From Gemmatimonadota bacterium (GTDB lineage: Bacteria > Gemmatimonadota > Gemmatimonadetes > Gemmatimonadales > GWC2-71-9), in assembly GCA_027294455.1 (NCBI GenBank), contig JAPULZ010000064.1, positions 62,001-126,000 of the forward strand: a DNA stretch of 64,000 nt, written 5' to 3'. The notes below the pieces were generated by a model that was given only the letters and a program-made list of their open reading frames with translations, did no database searches and was not told the DNA's origin. Every line of letters begins with the position of its first letter. The stretch's first letter is position 1. The position numbers and the translations under genes are program-made. Of the stretch, positions 54,699 through 62,150 are shown one piece after another.

Positions 54699-54938
54699 AT
54701 GCACGACCTTCCCCCCATCCGGTTCGGGGAGGATATCATCGCCCTCAGGTTGGTCGTGCGGAGAGCGGAAGACGCGTCCTGGCGAGGGCGGCTCGTCTTC
54801 GGCTCCGACGATCTGGATCGAGCCGCCTCGACCGCAGAAATCTTCTTTGGCGCCACCGAGCCCGACCTGTGGGATTCCGTCCGCGACCTGCGGGATCACC
54901 ATATCCGAGATCTGTATCGTTCGTTGATGGCGGAATGA
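54699..54938 (+). CDS. 79-aa hypothetical protein
   Basis: MHDLPPIRFGEDIIALRLVVRRAEDASWRGRLVFGSDDLDRAASTAEIFFG...; overlaps the next start by 4 nt. Confidence 0.55.
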   Translation: MHDLPPIRFGEDIIALRLVVRRAEDASWRGRLVFGSDDLDRAASTAEIFFGATEPDLWDSVRDLRDHHIRDLYRSLMAE

Positions 54939-55138
54939 CCGAGAGCACATCCACGGACGAGCGACTCCGAAAACTGTGTCACGACATCGCCAACCCGCTC
55001 ACGGCCATCCTGGCCGAGGCGCAGCTGCTCCTCATGGACGAGGGTTCCCTCGCCGACGATACGGTGCGCGCGCTGCGCGAGATTGAGACCCTCTCGCGGC
55101 GCATCCGCGACCTGCTGGCCGAATCTTCCACTGCTTGA
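54935..55138 (+). CDS. Stand-alone HisKA (dimerisation/phosphoacceptor) domain protein, 67 aa
   Basis: RLRKLCHDIANPLTAILAEAQLLL H-box followed by a second helix; no HATPase_c follows. Confidence 0.65.
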   Translation: MTESTSTDERLRKLCHDIANPLTAILAEAQLLLMDEGSLADDTVRALREIETLSRRIRDLLAESSTA

Positions 55139-55258: not shown

Positions 55259-56623
55259 ATGATTGATCCTTCCTTTGGTACCACCGCGCGTGCCGTGTGG
55301 GTGACGCGCCGCCTGGCTGTGGCCGTGGCCCTCGGGGCAGCTTGCGTCCCCGGCGGGCTCTCGGAGGTGTCTCCCGCAGAGGTCCCGGAGCTGGAAGCAC
55401 GCCTGCAACGAGAGCCGGCCAACGGCGAAGTCATGCTGCGCTATGGCGCTGCACTATATGCCGCGCAGCGATGTGACAGTGCCATGGCCGTCGCCCGTCG
55501 TGGCGCAGCGCTGCTTCCCGGCGACGCGCTCGGCCCGATGATTCTGGGGCAATGCCTCGAGCAATCGGGCGACCACGTGCAGGCGATCGCGATCTACACG
55601 GCGTTCATTCGCGATCACCGTGAGGCCCGCGGCGTCGCGGCCGTTCGTGCGCGTGATTTGCTGGCGCGGCGCGAGCAGGCAACCATCTTCGCGCGCACGG
55701 CGCTCGACCGGGAAGCCGATCTGGCCGGGCAAGCTCTGGATCCCCAAACGGTCGCGGTGTTGCCGCTAGCCATCTCGGGCGACGCGCGATACGAGCCGCT
55801 GGGCCGTGGCCTCGCGCATATGATCCAATCCGATCTGGCGCTGTTGCAGCAATTCCGCATGGTCGAACGATTGCAAATCGGCGCGTTGCTCGACGAACTA
55901 GAGTTGGGGCAAACGTCGCGCGTCGATCCGACCACCGTGGCGCGAGTCGGCCGGCTCGTTCGTGCCGGACGCATGGTGCAAGGCTTGGCCGCGATTCCCC
56001 CGCAGGGAGACATCAGGATCGAAGCCAGTATCGTGCAGTCGGACGGCGAGGTGACGGATCCGGAGTTCGTGACGGGACGGTTGCGTGATCTGCTGCAGCT
56101 CGAGAAAGAGCTGGTCGTGCTGATCTCCTCACGATTGGGCTACCAACTCTCGCAGGCGGAACGGCAGTTGATTCTCGGAAACGGCACGCAGGAGTTCGCC
56201 GCATTCCTATTGTACTCACAGGGTCTGATCGCCGAGAAAATCGGTGACTATTCGGCGGCCGCCACGCACTTCTCGTCGGCGATCCGGGCCGACCCGGGTT
56301 TCCGTCAAGCCCGAGTCCAATACGAGGCGACGGCCGCGGCGGACGTGGTGCAACGCGCGGCACCCGGCCAGATCACCTCGATATCGCGCATGATCGTCCA
56401 GCAACCGATTAGCAACACCGTCCCCAATCCGGTGCTGAATGCCGTAGCCAGCGTGGTGATCGACATTGCCGCCACCCGGGCCGAAACGACCACGGCGGCC
56501 GGCCGGGGAGCCGAGCAGCAGGCGACGAGGACGACCACGGCGGTGCCCCCGCCAACGACGACGGCGACCGGAACCACTGCAACGGTGACGGGCATAGTCC
56601 GCATCATCTTCAAGTTGCCATGA
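55259..56623 (+). CDS. CsgG/FlgO-like outer-membrane lipoprotein with TPR-like segments
   Basis: Lipobox-like VALGAAC; TVAVLPLAISGDARYEPLGRGLAHMIQSDLALLQQFRMVERLQIGALLDELELG; Thr-rich C-terminal tail. Confidence 0.7.
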   Translation: MIDPSFGTTARAVWVTRRLAVAVALGAACVPGGLSEVSPAEVPELEARLQREPANGEVMLRYGAALYAAQRCDSAMAVARRGAALLPGDALGPMILGQCLEQSGDHVQAIAIYTAFIRDHREARGVAAVRARDLLARREQATIFARTALDREADLAGQALDPQTVAVLPLAISGDARYEPLGRGLAHMIQSDLALLQQFRMVERLQIGALLDELELGQTSRVDPTTVARVGRLVRAGRMVQGLAAIPPQGDIRIEASIVQSDGEVTDPEFVTGRLRDLLQLEKELVVLISSRLGYQLSQAERQLILGNGTQEFAAFLLYSQGLIAEKIGDYSAAATHFSSAIRADPGFRQARVQYEATAAADVVQRAAPGQITSISRMIVQQPISNTVPNPVLNAVASVVIDIAATRAETTTAAGRGAEQQATRTTTAVPPPTTTATGTTATVTGIVRIIFKLP

Positions 56624-57750
56624 AGAAACCACTGGGAGTATTGGTAGCCGGCGTGTTGAGCGTCGCGCCCGCAACGGCCATGGCGCAGGTTGCCTTGGAC
56701 GTGCGGTCCTCGGCGCTCTTTGAGAGCTACAAATTCGATGCCGGCCTTCCCTTCTCGAAAGTTTCCGAATTCACCGTTCCGGTGGGTATTACGATCGGGT
56801 TGGGACGGTTTGGCAATTTCACCATCTCGTCGGGGTACGCCTCTGTCGAGCTGATCAGCTCCGATCCGGTACAGCTGGCCGACCAGACGGTATCGGGCAT
56901 GCTCGACACCGAAACGCGTCTCACCGTCAACGTCGTGCCGGGTCGCTTGGTGGCGCTGTTCACCGGCGTGCTGCCTACAGGCATCAAGACGGTCCAGTTC
57001 GAGGAGCTTTCGATTCTCGGGGCCATCTCGAGCGACGTCATCGGATTCTCCACGTCCGACATCGGGACGGGGGGCAGCGTGGGGGGAGGATTCGCCGGGG
57101 CGTTCCCCATGGGCAATATGGCCATGGGCTTCGGCGCGACCTACCGCCACCCCCTGTCGTATCAGCCGCTCGTGGGACAGAGCGATCTGTTGCGCCCGGG
57201 ACCCGAGGTGATGGTGCGTGGTGGCCTGGAGGGTGGGATCGCGCGCCGCACGTACCTGCGTGTTGCCGGGATCTTCGCCCGACGGATGAAAGACAAGGTG
57301 AACGGGGGCCTCCAGAACGGGGTGGGCAACCGCTTCATCGGATACCTATCGCTCGAGCAGGGCATCGGCCGGTCCACCGTCACGGTGTACGGGTTCGATG
57401 TGTTTCGAGCCGATCCCCAGGTCGAGCCGACCGCCGCAGGGGCTGCGCTGTTGCCCCGTGGCAACCTCATCGCGTTTGGTGGCCAGATCTCGCTGCCCAT
57501 CGGCCGATCGGTGAGCTTCATCCCGCGCGGGGAGTTTCGACGCTCCAACGCCGCGCCCGACACCGTCGATACCAGCCTGCAGCGATTGGGCGATTCGTTC
57601 CGGTTCGGCGCCGACGTTCGTATTCGTGCGAGTCGTAGTTTCGCCTTCGTCCTGTACGGTGGCGGTTTCACAGGCACCGCGTACCAGTCCGCAACGCGAG
57701 TCGGCGTGACCGGTTTTCGTGCTGCAGTTCATTTGGAAGTGACACGTTGA
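56620..57750 (+). CDS. Outer-membrane beta-barrel protein
   Basis: Signal peptide GVLVAGVLSVAPATAMAQ; alternating beta pattern; GFGATYRHPLSYQPL; C-terminal TGFRAAVHLEVTR. Confidence 0.65.
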   Translation: MKKPLGVLVAGVLSVAPATAMAQVALDVRSSALFESYKFDAGLPFSKVSEFTVPVGITIGLGRFGNFTISSGYASVELISSDPVQLADQTVSGMLDTETRLTVNVVPGRLVALFTGVLPTGIKTVQFEELSILGAISSDVIGFSTSDIGTGGSVGGGFAGAFPMGNMAMGFGATYRHPLSYQPLVGQSDLLRPGPEVMVRGGLEGGIARRTYLRVAGIFARRMKDKVNGGLQNGVGNRFIGYLSLEQGIGRSTVTVYGFDVFRADPQVEPTAAGAALLPRGNLIAFGGQISLPIGRSVSFIPRGEFRRSNAAPDTVDTSLQRLGDSFRFGADVRIRASRSFAFVLYGGGFTGTAYQSATRVGVTGFRAAVHLEVTR

Positions 57751-60700
57751 AAGTAGTTTCTCCTTACCGGTTGTCTTGGCGCGCGCTCGCGGGGGCGGTG
57801 CTCGTTGGACTCGTGACCGCGAATTGCACGGACACGGCCGGCCCGGATACCGCCTCGCAGGGACGCATCGCCATCGTCCCGGTGTTCGAGAGCAGTGCCG
57901 CGGGCATCGTGGCGGTGGATCAAGTCGGCATTGCCCTCCTGCGTTCGGACTCGTCCACCGTGGCACTCGATACGGTCATACAGTTGGAGCCCGGACAGGA
58001 TTCGGTGGATCTGACCGTCACCGTCACGGTGCTGAGGCAGAGCGAGCAGTTCTTCCTGGAGATCACACTGCTGGATGCTGCCAGTGACACCGTTTTCCGT
58101 GGCGGGCCGATGCTGGTCACGGCGAGCACGTCCGGCAGGGGGGAGCCGGTGCTGATTCCGCTCGTCTACACGGGTGTGGGTGCCGATGCCGCCGGCGTGC
58201 GGATCACGACGACCAACGCCACCGCCTTCTTCGGCGACAGTGTTGAATTTGTGGCCGAGGCCTTCGATGGCGGTGGGGTCGCGATTCCTGGGACCCCCGT
58301 GCGCTGGCATACCACCGACGAGACGATCGCGTCCTTCCCCGACCACCGAGCAGCGTGGGCCCATGGCGGCTCGGCACGCGGCTCCGTCCCCGTCGTGGCC
58401 ACCCTCTTGAACGGACCCACCGACACGTCGTCGGTGCTGGTCCAGCCGGTGCCGATCGAGATCGCGGTGTCGGCAGGCGACGGCCAAACCGCTCCCGTGG
58501 GGAGCGTGCTGCCGACGCCCATAGAAATCCTGGTGACGGCCGCCGACTTGCTCGGAGTCGAGGGCGTCCTCGTCGTATTTGGAGTCGCCGGCGGCAATGG
58601 GACCCTCTCGGTGGATTCCGTGGTGACCGACGGGTTCGGCAAGGCCCAAGCGGTGTGGACGCTGGGCGCAACCCCTGGCAACCTGCAGGCGACCGCGGTC
58701 GTTCCGGCCATCGCCGATACGGCATTTGTCAGTGCGACCGGCACCGTGGCGGCGGTGTCCTGGATCAATCCCGCCGGCGGCAACTGGAGCAATGCGGCGA
58801 ACTGGAATCCGGCCATCGTGCCCGGCTTTGGCAATCAAGCGCTCATCGACCTGGACGGTACCTATACCGTCACGCTCGATGTGACGACCCAGGTGAGCGT
58901 GCTCACCGTCGGGGCGGCCACAGGGACGCAGACACTCTCGATCGCGACTAATATCCTCACCGTGGATGCTCCATCGAGCATCGGGGTCAACGGTGTGCTC
59001 GATTTGAGCGGTGGGACGCTCAACGGCATCGGCACGCTGTCGGTGTTCGGTAGCATGCTCTGGTCCGGCGGTACCATGAGTGACGGTGGAACGCTCCGGG
59101 TGGAGACCGGCGGCCTGCTGACCCTCGGCGGCGGCACCAAGACGCTCCTCGGCGGTCGCCGCATCGACAACGTGGGGAACGTCACCTGGCTAGCCGGCGA
59201 TATCAATGCCGGCGAGGCCTCGTCGATCATCAACGAGCCGGGGGCCACAATGGGCATTCAGGGTGACGTGCAGCTCTTGCAGGGCCCGGGCGCGCCGTCG
59301 GCATTCTTCAACGGCGGTATGGTGACCAGGTCCACTGGCACAGGCACGGTCTCCATCAACGTGATCTTCGACAACAACGGGGCCGTGGACGTCTTGAGCG
59401 GTCTCCTCGACCTCGCGGGCGGTGGTTTCGGCACGGGTTCATTCGACGTATCCATCGGTGCCACCCTCCACTTCGAGGGTAACCACGACTTCGGGTCGAT
59501 CGTGAACAACGGCGTGGTGGACGTGGGGGCGGGAATCGCCAGGCTCACCGGCGCCTTCACCCACTCCGCCGGCGCGACCTTGTCGGGCTTCGGGGAGTTC
59601 AAGGTGGACGGGGACATCATCACGACAGGCACCATTGCCATGCCGGCCGGCGAATTGGCCGTGGGCGGGACGCTGAACTCCACGGGGGCCTTCAGCGTGG
59701 GGACTGTCACGTTCTTCGGGACCGCGCAGACCATTCCGGTTTCGTTGGCGTATCAGAATATCCAGGTGCTCGGCACGGCGGCCATCGACGGGACGTTGTC
59801 GATGAGCGGGTTCATCGTCGTGTTCGGATTCGGCGATCTGACCATCAGCTCGGTCGCGGACGTCAGTACATCGAGTGATGTCATCGTGACCGACGACGCG
59901 ACCTTGAACGTCACCGGCGGCGGCCAGCTCACCGTTGGTAACGATCTCATCGCCCAAATGAATGCGGGGGTGTACATCGGATTGGCATCGACGATCAATG
60001 TCGCCAAGCGATTCGTGACGCAGGACCAGGCGTATCTCAACATGGGTATTGGCGTGGTGCTCGACGTTGACGGGGACGTGGAGTTCGGCGGTGGGTCCAC
60101 CGCGGGCATGCTTCCAGACGGCGTCATTTTTGTGGGCGGCAACTTCACCCAGTTGGGCGATCCCTCGAGCTTCGCCGCGTCGGGAGTGCACCAGGTCATT
60201 TTCGACGGGCTCAGTCCCCAGACTATCACGTTCACCGATTTTACGAATTCGTTCTTCCAGAATTTGTCGGGCGCGGGGTTCGCGGACATCGTGATCGCCT
60301 CGGAAATCGAAGTCACGGGCAACATGTCGGTGACGTCGCCCGGCTCGGTCCTCGGCAGCGGCATGGAAATCAACGTCCGCGGAAACTTCGATATCGGAAT
60401 CGGTGCGACACTGTCCCTCTTTGAGCTCGAAATCGACGGCATCTTGAACGCGTCGAACGTGAGCCTCTATGACGTCTTCGAAACCGACTTCCACGGTACC
60501 GGGCAAACCATCCCGACGGACCTTCCGTACAACGACCTAACCGTCAGTGGCGAAGCCGCGTTCATGAACGCGGGCAGCGGCTCGATCGCGGGCAATATCC
60601 TCATATCGGATTTCGGTATCCTGACGATGAATCAGGCGAGCATGACGGTGATGGGTAACTTCAGCACCACCCAGAACGGCGTCCTGGTGATGAACGACCC

Positions 60701-61409
60701 CTTCGATGTCCTGACGGTCATGGGCAACGTGGATTTTGGCGGTGACAACACGAATGCCTTGCTCGACGACGGAACCCTCTACGTCGGCGGGAACTTCACC
60801 CAGAGTGCTCTCGCCAGTCCCGAGAGCTTCCACCCGGGCGGCAACCACACGGTCGTGTTCAACGGCACCGGACCCCAAAACGTGATGTTCGCGACGCCCG
60901 GGATCGGAATCGCGGCCATGCTGTCCCATTTCGCGAACGTGGCGTTCGAGAACACGGGCTCGGGCGTGATTCTGATGAGCGATGTGTTCGCGCACTCGAA
61001 CCTCATCTCATCCACGGGGCCGGCGAGTACGGTCTTCGGAAACGGGTACCGGCTGGCCGTCGGCGGGCTCGACGTCAACGATCTGGTTCTGGATCACGTG
61101 TTGCTGGAGTGGAACGGCACGCCGACCTTCCCGTCATTCGGGTCGTTCATCGGGTTCAACAATGTGACGTTCCAAGGAGCTTACGCCACGAACGACCGCC
61201 AGTTCACGGTCATTCATCCGGGCGCAGCCGCACCATTCGCCTTCACGGGACTGAACTTCACGTTCGCCCCAACGCTGCCGGGCATGTACATCTATGCTAG
61301 TGACAGCGACAGTGCGGCTCCCTTCCTGACGATCAACGTGACCGCGTCGATTCCGGCCACCTCGGGGGGACTCGCGGTCTCTGCCGGTGGCGCAGTGATC
61401 AGCTGGTAG
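57747..61409 (+). CDS. 1220-aa surface lipoprotein: Ig-like (Big) domains plus beta-helix/adhesin-like repeats
   Basis: TTG start; lipobox-like GLVTANC; Big-type VEFVAEAFDGGGVAIPGTPVRWHT; WINPAGGNWSNAANWNPAIVPGFGNQALIDLDGTYTVTLD; repeated GNFTQ and G(T)xQTIP motifs. Confidence 0.75.
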   Translation: MKVVSPYRLSWRALAGAVLVGLVTANCTDTAGPDTASQGRIAIVPVFESSAAGIVAVDQVGIALLRSDSSTVALDTVIQLEPGQDSVDLTVTVTVLRQSEQFFLEITLLDAASDTVFRGGPMLVTASTSGRGEPVLIPLVYTGVGADAAGVRITTTNATAFFGDSVEFVAEAFDGGGVAIPGTPVRWHTTDETIASFPDHRAAWAHGGSARGSVPVVATLLNGPTDTSSVLVQPVPIEIAVSAGDGQTAPVGSVLPTPIEILVTAADLLGVEGVLVVFGVAGGNGTLSVDSVVTDGFGKAQAVWTLGATPGNLQATAVVPAIADTAFVSATGTVAAVSWINPAGGNWSNAANWNPAIVPGFGNQALIDLDGTYTVTLDVTTQVSVLTVGAATGTQTLSIATNILTVDAPSSIGVNGVLDLSGGTLNGIGTLSVFGSMLWSGGTMSDGGTLRVETGGLLTLGGGTKTLLGGRRIDNVGNVTWLAGDINAGEASSIINEPGATMGIQGDVQLLQGPGAPSAFFNGGMVTRSTGTGTVSINVIFDNNGAVDVLSGLLDLAGGGFGTGSFDVSIGATLHFEGNHDFGSIVNNGVVDVGAGIARLTGAFTHSAGATLSGFGEFKVDGDIITTGTIAMPAGELAVGGTLNSTGAFSVGTVTFFGTAQTIPVSLAYQNIQVLGTAAIDGTLSMSGFIVVFGFGDLTISSVADVSTSSDVIVTDDATLNVTGGGQLTVGNDLIAQMNAGVYIGLASTINVAKRFVTQDQAYLNMGIGVVLDVDGDVEFGGGSTAGMLPDGVIFVGGNFTQLGDPSSFAASGVHQVIFDGLSPQTITFTDFTNSFFQNLSGAGFADIVIASEIEVTGNMSVTSPGSVLGSGMEINVRGNFDIGIGATLSLFELEIDGILNASNVSLYDVFETDFHGTGQTIPTDLPYNDLTVSGEAAFMNAGSGSIAGNILISDFGILTMNQASMTVMGNFSTTQNGVLVMNDPFDVLTVMGNVDFGGDNTNALLDDGTLYVGGNFTQSALASPESFHPGGNHTVVFNGTGPQNVMFATPGIGIAAMLSHFANVAFENTGSGVILMSDVFAHSNLISSTGPASTVFGNGYRLAVGGLDVNDLVLDHVLLEWNGTPTFPSFGSFIGFNNVTFQGAYATNDRQFTVIHPGAAAPFAFTGLNFTFAPTLPGMYIYASDSDSAAPFLTINVTASIPATSGGLAVSAGGAVISW

Positions 61410-61453: not shown

Positions 61454-61488
61454 AGTGGGTGGAATTCGCTCGACGAATTCCACCCACT
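61454..61488. terminator. Strong 15-bp hairpin, probable bidirectional terminator
   Basis: AGTGGGTGGAATTCG-CTCGA-CGAATTCCACCCACT between convergent genes. Confidence 0.7.
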
Positions 61489-61508: not shown

Positions 61509-62150
61509 TCAGTCGCTGCGCTCGATCTTGAAGTTGTGCACCCGCATGTCCACGTTGTGGTTCATGCGGAAGCCAACGATTCCGTCGGTGTACACGTCGG
61601 CCGCTTTTTCACGATGCACTTCCTGGCCATTCAACATGAAGATGACGTCCTCCGGCGTGACGCGCACGGCCAGGGTATTGGTCACGTGTCCCTCGGCTGA
61701 CTGATTGACGGCTGCGTGCTCGGTCCACTGGGTGAGATACGCGGTTTCACTACCGGTGCGCGTCTTGACCAGATAGTTACCGTCCCCTCGTACCAGGACG
61801 TACGTGTATGCCTGGCCCTCGCCCTGCAGGTCGGCGCCGCCGAAGACTAGGCCCACGCCGTGGGCATGGCCCTTGGAGCTGAGCTGTTCGAAATCGGCGC
61901 TGATGGTGTAGCTGCCGTGAGCGACGTCTTCGTCGCGATAGAAGACCACCGCCGGTCCGACGCTGACCTCCCACCCCGTTGCGGTTTCCTCGAAACGCAC
62001 GTTGGAGAAGTCCTGGCCGCGGTCGGTGCGGGCCATCCAACCTTCGGCCAGCTTGCCGCCGCCGGCGATGGCCCGGTCGGCGTCGTGGTCCTGGGCTATG
62101 GCCGGCAGTGCCAAGGAGAGTGCCACCAGGGTCAATGGTATGGAGCGCAT
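61509..62150 (-). CDS. Secreted concanavalin/LamG-like (DUF1080-like) protein
   Basis: Signal peptide IPLTLVALSLALPAIAQ; GSYTISADFEQLSSKGHAHGVGLVFGG...NTLAVRVTPEDVIFMLNGQEV...GIVGFRMNHNVDMRVHNFKIE. Confidence 0.65.
   Translation of the reverse strand: MRSIPLTLVALSLALPAIAQDHDADRAIAGGGKLAEGWMARTDRGQDFSNVRFEETATGWEVSVGPAVVFYRDEDVAHGSYTISADFEQLSSKGHAHGVGLVFGGADLQGEGQAYTYVLVRGDGNYLVKTRTGSETAYLTQWTEHAAVNQSAEGHVTNTLAVRVTPEDVIFMLNGQEVHREKAADVYTDGIVGFRMNHNVDMRVHNFKIERSD

Follow-up and report, generated by a model that had tools for sequence, protein, structure and literature searches.

How are large proteins placed on the cell surface in bacteria outside the Proteobacteria and Bacteroidota? To our knowledge this is largely unknown. 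Here we consider the question for three overlapping genes from the Gemmatimonadota, which are abundant and poorly studied bacteria of soil and freshwater. The genes, called gene 1, gene 2 and gene 3 below, lie near the end of a stretch of 64,000 nucleotides (assembly GCA_027294455.1, contig JAPULZ010000064.1, positions 62,001 to 126,000), which we refer to as the window. A first-pass annotation of the window had read them as one operon that encodes a lipoprotein with a CsgG-like domain, an outer-membrane barrel and a large repeat lipoprotein, and had proposed an export or surface-display module. Our analysis points to a wider arrangement. It seems about an even call that the products of genes 1 and 2 serve, as an apparatus in the outer membrane, to export or display a whole family of surface lipoproteins. 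The members of this family are headed by the lipidated N-terminal domain of gene 3, of about 128 residues, which we name G3N (profile A7).

Co-inheritance of the three families

Genes 1 and 2 travel together. Among 101 related genomes, 58 carry both, one carries gene 1 only and none carries gene 2 only, and a strong gene-1 match lies within 1.5 kb of 61 of the 62 gene-2 places. The pair is usually found in one copy per genome. In a wider sample gene 2 was found in 118 of 249 Gemmatimonadota genomes, and the pair is also present in records from KSB1, Zixibacteria, Ignavibacteria, Caldithrix and Bacteroidota. Cultivable bacteria with the pair include Longimonas halophila KCTC 42399 and apparently Gemmatimonas phototrophica, the latter observed in a metagenome-assembled genome. 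In the named-genome collection, gene 1 as a single-sequence query gave no matches and an alignment query gave 79 loci. The upstream gene order (Rho, M50 peptidase, two small open reading frames (ORFs), gene 1, gene 2) is maintained in about 20 related genomes, which makes the pair an old one, passed on vertically within the source family.

The third genes found behind gene 2 encode lipoproteins of 400-1500 amino acids (aa). Their first ~128 residues align with gene 3 and the remainder differs, with tails made of Big_2 domains with a cohesin-like end, FN3 repeats, InlB B-repeats or beta-helix. This combination of a conserved G3N and differing tails is what would be expected of conserved targeting plus variable display. 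A lipoprotein of this type directly follows gene 2 at about 28 non-redundant loci, which include other Gemmatimonadota families and KSB1, where gene 1, gene 2 and a G3N-like lipoprotein stand in this order (L178). The domain also occurs far beyond the locus: the profile finds it at 95 places in 52 of the 101 genomes, mostly distant from genes 1 and 2, in frames of up to 3264 aa. Gene 3 is one member of this family, not a one-off passenger. Many third genes also carry the N-terminal motif C-x-[DE]-x-x-G-P, which was considered as a Bacteroidota-like lipoprotein export signal; the motif is inconstant in distant lineages, and the whole of G3N is preferred.

The G3N lipoproteins follow gene 2 across genomes. 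They are present in 47 of the 58 genomes with gene 2 and in 5 of the 43 without it (Fisher p 1.2e-12). The association is maintained in genomes that are at least 90% complete (37/46 versus 3/26, p 1e-8), when each genus has one vote (p 1.9e-6) and within the single family f1, where 31 genomes have both, three G3N only, four gene 2 only and 23 neither (p 1e-9). In each of three genera (g26, g29 and g32), one species has both G3N and gene 2 and another has neither. In contrast, gene-3 matches of any kind, mostly to the Ig-like domains, are found in 92 of the 101 genomes. As most G3N proteins do not adjoin genes 1 and 2, linkage does not explain the association. The first-pass annotation had suggested looking for all three families together in related genomes, and they are co-inherited. 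An export or anchoring apparatus that works through a recognition domain would be expected to leave just such a pattern: usually one pair of barrel and TPR lipoprotein per genome, co-inherited with a dispersed family of lipoproteins that have G3N in common and differ behind it.

Predicted architecture of the three proteins

Gene 1 combines tetratricopeptide repeats (TPRs) with a match to the CsgG family (PF03783, 27 bits against a cut-off of 20.8), and all 26 orthologues scanned have this match. The CsgG-like domain of the first-pass annotation is therefore retained. The CsgG-type pore, and with it the suggestion of a CsgG-type secretion channel, is not. The match covers model positions 36-96 of 210 only, within the first half of the model. 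The AlphaFold2 model (76 sequences; predicted local distance difference test score, pLDDT, 87, core ~97) has TPR helices, an alpha/beta domain, further TPR helices and a low-confidence tail, and strands 238-246, 252-260 and 269-273 are joined by short turns where a CsgG channel would have extended hairpins. A fold search of the Protein Data Bank (PDB) placed TPR proteins and the TolB N-domain on top, with the periplasmic domain of CadC also present and no CsgG chain among the 50 matches listed; a sequence search with the domain alone found no PDB chain.

A convenient yardstick for hairpin length is available in the source genome itself, where a full-length CsgG-domain protein of 317 aa (L184; contig C131, ORF 1213-2166, - strand) matches PF03783 at model positions 7-202 with 116 bits. 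Counted from the sequences, this protein has ~34 and ~33 residues between the core elements and gene 1 has ~18 and ~11, which is ~16 and ~22 fewer. Both pore-forming hairpins of CsgG are therefore absent from gene 1. The L184 gene sits near a bactofilin-like gene, and no curli genes were found with it. Searches of the source genome (94% complete) for CsgF (PF10614) and curlin (PF07012) gave no match, with a positive E. coli control; CsgE was not searched. Gene 1 thus resembles the curli channel in being a lipoprotein that carries a CsgG-family alpha/beta domain, and differs from it in lacking the membrane hairpins, in having TPRs on both sides and in its genome, which has no CsgF or curlin match. 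That gene 1 itself is a CsgG-type secretion channel for gene 3 is very improbable in spite of the Pfam match shared by its orthologues, and the channel and curli readings were dropped. Any pore here would be formed by gene 2.

Periplasmic alpha/beta domains of the same type as that of gene 1 are found in the TolB N-terminus, LpoB and FlgO. Pfam matches to these families occur in some gene 1 members, sub-threshold or scattered, and the families differ from gene 1 in domain partners and genomic context. The matches of gene 1 to Pfam TPR_Slam do not reach the cut-off and are of the sort that any TPR gives. Behind its variable linker, gene 1 ends in a strand with a final proline that 56 of 62 Gemmatimonadota orthologues retain, compared with 3 of 1828 control 14-mers. 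The proteins from Rhodothermia, Ignavibacteria and Bacteroidota have a tail rich in proline in its place.

Gene 2 has no family match in Pfam or NCBIfam and no usable sequence relative in the PDB. The AlphaFold2 model (68 sequences, pLDDT 90) consists of 16 long antiparallel strands that form a barrel, which supports the initial reading of gene 2 as a barrel, presumably of the outer membrane. The closest solved structures are generic porins and channels of 14 to 18 strands, including CymA, BcsC, FadL and OmpG. Family searches with the 68 gene-2 members gave one weak PorV match (E 0.13) and one weak FadL match (E 0.018), and BCSC_C matches weakly in two gene-2 relatives.

Gene 3 is well described, as the first-pass annotation had it, as a large lipoprotein with Ig-like and beta-helix-like parts. 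A Big_1 match in Pfam is sub-threshold, and internal repeats of ~230 aa align with a score of 278, compared with 78 +/- 12 for shuffles. The protein is strongly acidic (101 acidic versus 25 basic residues) and the sole cysteine is the predicted lipidation site, Cys27. Its C-terminal unit of ~280 aa is also found in repeated copies within frames of 2178-3102 aa (G036:C62, G036:C361 and G055:C360).

A proposed display apparatus

We propose that genes 1 and 2 may encode the two components of an apparatus in the outer membrane, by which large modular surface lipoproteins, including gene 3, are exported, flipped or anchored. G3N would be the recognition part shared by gene 3 and its relatives, with variable display modules behind it. 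The gene 1 lipoprotein would receive G3N, and may dock on the barrel via its flexible tail and conserved C-terminal strand. The barrel could then be the passage through the outer membrane, for an outward movement, or an anchor in it. The operon structure, the co-inheritance of the three parts, the dispersed G3N lipoproteins and their variable tails are shown, and the folds are predictions; the position in the outer membrane, the docking, the recognition of G3N and the direction of transport are inferred. The surface-display function suggested earlier for this locus is thus plausible, and the pair probably places large adhesive proteins on the cell surface, not through a curli-type CsgG channel.

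In its full form, the proposal is of a previously undescribed secretion or display system, in which a split apparatus of TPR/CsgG-like lipoprotein and 16-strand barrel moves or anchors lipoproteins via G3N and each genome has one or several genes for cargo. About half of the Gemmatimonadota genomes would have it, and beyond this phylum it would be recognisable in KSB1, Zixibacteria, Ignavibacteria, Caldithrix and Rhodothermia. This larger claim we hold tentatively, at somewhat less than even chances. A barrel with a periplasmic partner for surface display is a kind already known; the cargo domain G3N is undescribed. No published description of the three-part system was found in the open literature, subscription journals being outside this coverage. 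If the proposal is true, genes 1 and 2 are a defined machine with a recognisable cargo tag and ~95 predicted cargo proteins in the 101 genomes, and one domain search predicts surface adhesins of Gemmatimonadota.

Alternative explanations and known systems

Several observations weigh against this apparatus. The lipobox of gene 3 (VTAN-C) is non-canonical, with N at the -1 position instead of the usual A, G or S, which most gene 3 orthologues have. A member of the same genus (L105) keeps genes 1 and 2, and beside gene 2 it has a 70-residue remnant of gene 3 (L105 10380-10760; 29% identity to the last 75 residues, E 4e-5). A gene-3-like N-terminus lies at the end of another contig of that genome, and the reduction may reflect an assembly break. 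At some places genes 1 and 2 also persist with no gene 3 next to them, and of the genomes with gene 2, 11 gave no G3N match; divergent G3N-like lipoproteins adjoin gene 2 in at least two of these (L213 and L214). The co-occurrence statistics for G3N and gene 2 were computed without tree correction. The 16-strand barrel is a generic fold, whose best matches are porins, FadL and BcsC with a TM score (on query) of at most 0.52. Finally, in Longimonas halophila and a relative (L137/L138), and in Ignavibacteria and Bacteroidota, the order is gene 1, a giant secreted protein of 1200-2430 aa and gene 2 (also L149, L164, L172 and L181). The position of the giant between the two genes counts in favour of the apparatus, but these giants at the locus in other phyla end in a sorting domain of the type IX secretion system (T9SS). 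There, therefore, T9SS and not genes 1 and 2 should carry the giants across, and this is the strongest argument for a pair that anchors and does not export.

The pair may accordingly be asked to do less, as an anchoring or shuttle pair, similar to PorP/SprF, for giant adhesins that reach the surface by T9SS or by an unknown route. PorP-like barrels bind and anchor cognate adhesins, some of them encoded adjacently (PMC9143113), and the PorP/SprF-SprB pairs couple a barrel gene to a large repetitive surface protein (PMC9143113), much as gene 2 is coupled to gene 3. This precedent, the T9SS-tailed giants at the locus in several phyla and a SprA homologue in the source genome speak for such a role; we still consider it unlikely. 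The T9SS type-B cargo domain is found at the locus only in other phyla, no T9SS tail (PF18962) was found in the source genome and none is present in gene 3, which is a lipoprotein. PorP-like barrels are described as 14-stranded and FadL-type, but gene 2 has 16 predicted strands and its 68 members gave only the weak PorV and FadL matches; the TPR/CsgG-like lipoprotein is an additional component. Slightly less probable is a polysaccharide export pair such as AlgK/AlgE or PelC/PelB, with G3N lipoproteins that bind or organise the polymer. The predicted structures of genes 1 and 2 have the architecture for it: a TPR lipoprotein with a large barrel (16 or 18 strands) as in alginate export, while Pel export has a lipoprotein ring under a TPR-barrel protein (PMC12141448). 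Barrels of 16 strands are known in PelB, BcsC and PgaA (PMC12141448), and in the structure search BcsC ranks with the better matches to gene 2 (TM 0.51), beside the weak BCSC_C matches of two relatives. However, no polymer synthase was noticed among the gene neighbours read in the window and in relatives (the whole genome was not searched), and the conserved, co-inherited partner is a protein family, the modular G3N lipoproteins. Less probable again is that gene 1 is an envelope-maintenance or sensing lipoprotein of the TolB/LpoB/FlgO kind and gene 2 a porin, with gene 3 inherited alongside them solely for reasons of regulation. This idea is in line with TolB_N and CadC as structural neighbours of the gene 1 domain, and with the short CsgG-like proteins, PEGA-kinases and FHA proteins near the locus in other lineages; it leaves unexplained why distant G3N proteins follow gene 2 across genomes.

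Among known systems, the proposed export or display apparatus is closest in kind to Slam, a DUF560 surface-lipoprotein translocator of TPR and barrel proposed as type 11 secretion (PMC8406197). Both have a periplasmic TPR part, an outer-membrane barrel and surface lipoproteins with a common domain as cargo, often encoded beside the barrel gene. Slam, however, is a single polypeptide, whereas here TPR and barrel are in separate genes and the TPR protein is a lipoprotein with an additional alpha/beta domain. Gene 2 has 16 predicted strands, DUF560 had no match among the Pfam results of its 68 members, and no Pfam match likens G3N to TbpB. Membership of Slam was rejected for want of DUF560. In its working the apparatus would resemble Slam or AlgK/AlgE, belonging to neither, and also the CsgG channel, curli and T9SS pairs; it fails defining features tested for the CsgG channel, curli, Slam and T9SS pairs and is assigned to none of them.

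The SprA-like frame of the source genome is 1976 aa long (contig C172, L187/L188), and no protein with a T9SS C-terminal tail was found there. Judging from this frame, Gemmatimonadota may have a T9SS-type translocon with unknown cargo signals.

Organisation of the locus

The coordinates of the features are collected in Table 1. The 4-nt overlaps at both junctions (ATGA between genes 1 and 2, TTGA between genes 2 and 3), reported by the first-pass annotation, are confirmed by the ORF coordinates. The first is the same in most Gemmatimonadota relatives, and at the second an overlap of 4 nt or 13 nt is again seen. Since the overlaps recur among relatives they are not chance, which supports the single transcription and translation unit that had been suggested.

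Table 1. Features of the three-gene locus, in window coordinates
Feature	Position	Strand	Length	Description
Small upstream ORF	54699..54938	+	79 aa	Conserved upstream of gene 1, 24 loci; syntenic neighbour
Small upstream ORF	54935..55138	+	67 aa	Resembles histidine-kinase dimerisation fragment; 21 loci; syntenic neighbour
Gene 1	55259..56623	+	454 aa	Lipoprotein: TPR, CsgG/TolB_N-like alpha/beta domain, TPR
Gene 1 Cys29	55343..55345	+		Predicted lipidation site; C in 48/62 orthologue rows
Gene 1 N-terminal TPR region	55373..55708	+		Residues 39-150
Gene 1 CsgG/TolB_N-like alpha/beta domain	55736..56134	+		Residues 160-292; lacks both membrane hairpins of CsgG
Gene 1 C-terminal TPR region	56153..56356	+		Residues 299-366
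Gene 1 linker	56375..56587	+		Residues 373-443; S/T/P/Q-rich, variable, low model confidence
Gene 1 C-terminal beta-strand	56588..56620	+		Residues 444-454; conserved, GIVRIIFKLP; proposed docking element
Gene 2	56620..57750	+	376 aa	Predicted 16-strand outer-membrane beta-barrel, strands between residues 26 and 375
Gene 3	57747..61409	+	1220 aa	Large secreted/surface lipoprotein
Gene 3 G3N domain	57825..58208	+	~128 aa	Predicted lipid Cys27, then conserved N-terminal domain
Gene 3 Ig-like region	58197..58736	+		Residues ~151-330; Big_1-type, sub-threshold
Gene 3 beta-helix-like repeat region	58749..61406	+		Residues ~335-1220; two related units, ~636-879 and ~893-1107
Perfect 14-bp hairpin	61455..61487	.		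Operon end, before convergent gene 61509-62150

The hairpin behind gene 3 is a possible bidirectional terminator and would mark the operon boundary. In several other lineages the pair has short CsgG-domain proteins, PEGA-type Ser/Thr kinases and FHA proteins as close neighbours (L138, L155, L165, L198, L210, L213 and L214), which suggests phospho-regulation of the surface module in some of these lineages. The two tiny ORFs upstream of gene 1 overlap each other and are conserved in more than 20 relatives, and the kinase-like one has no catalytic domain.

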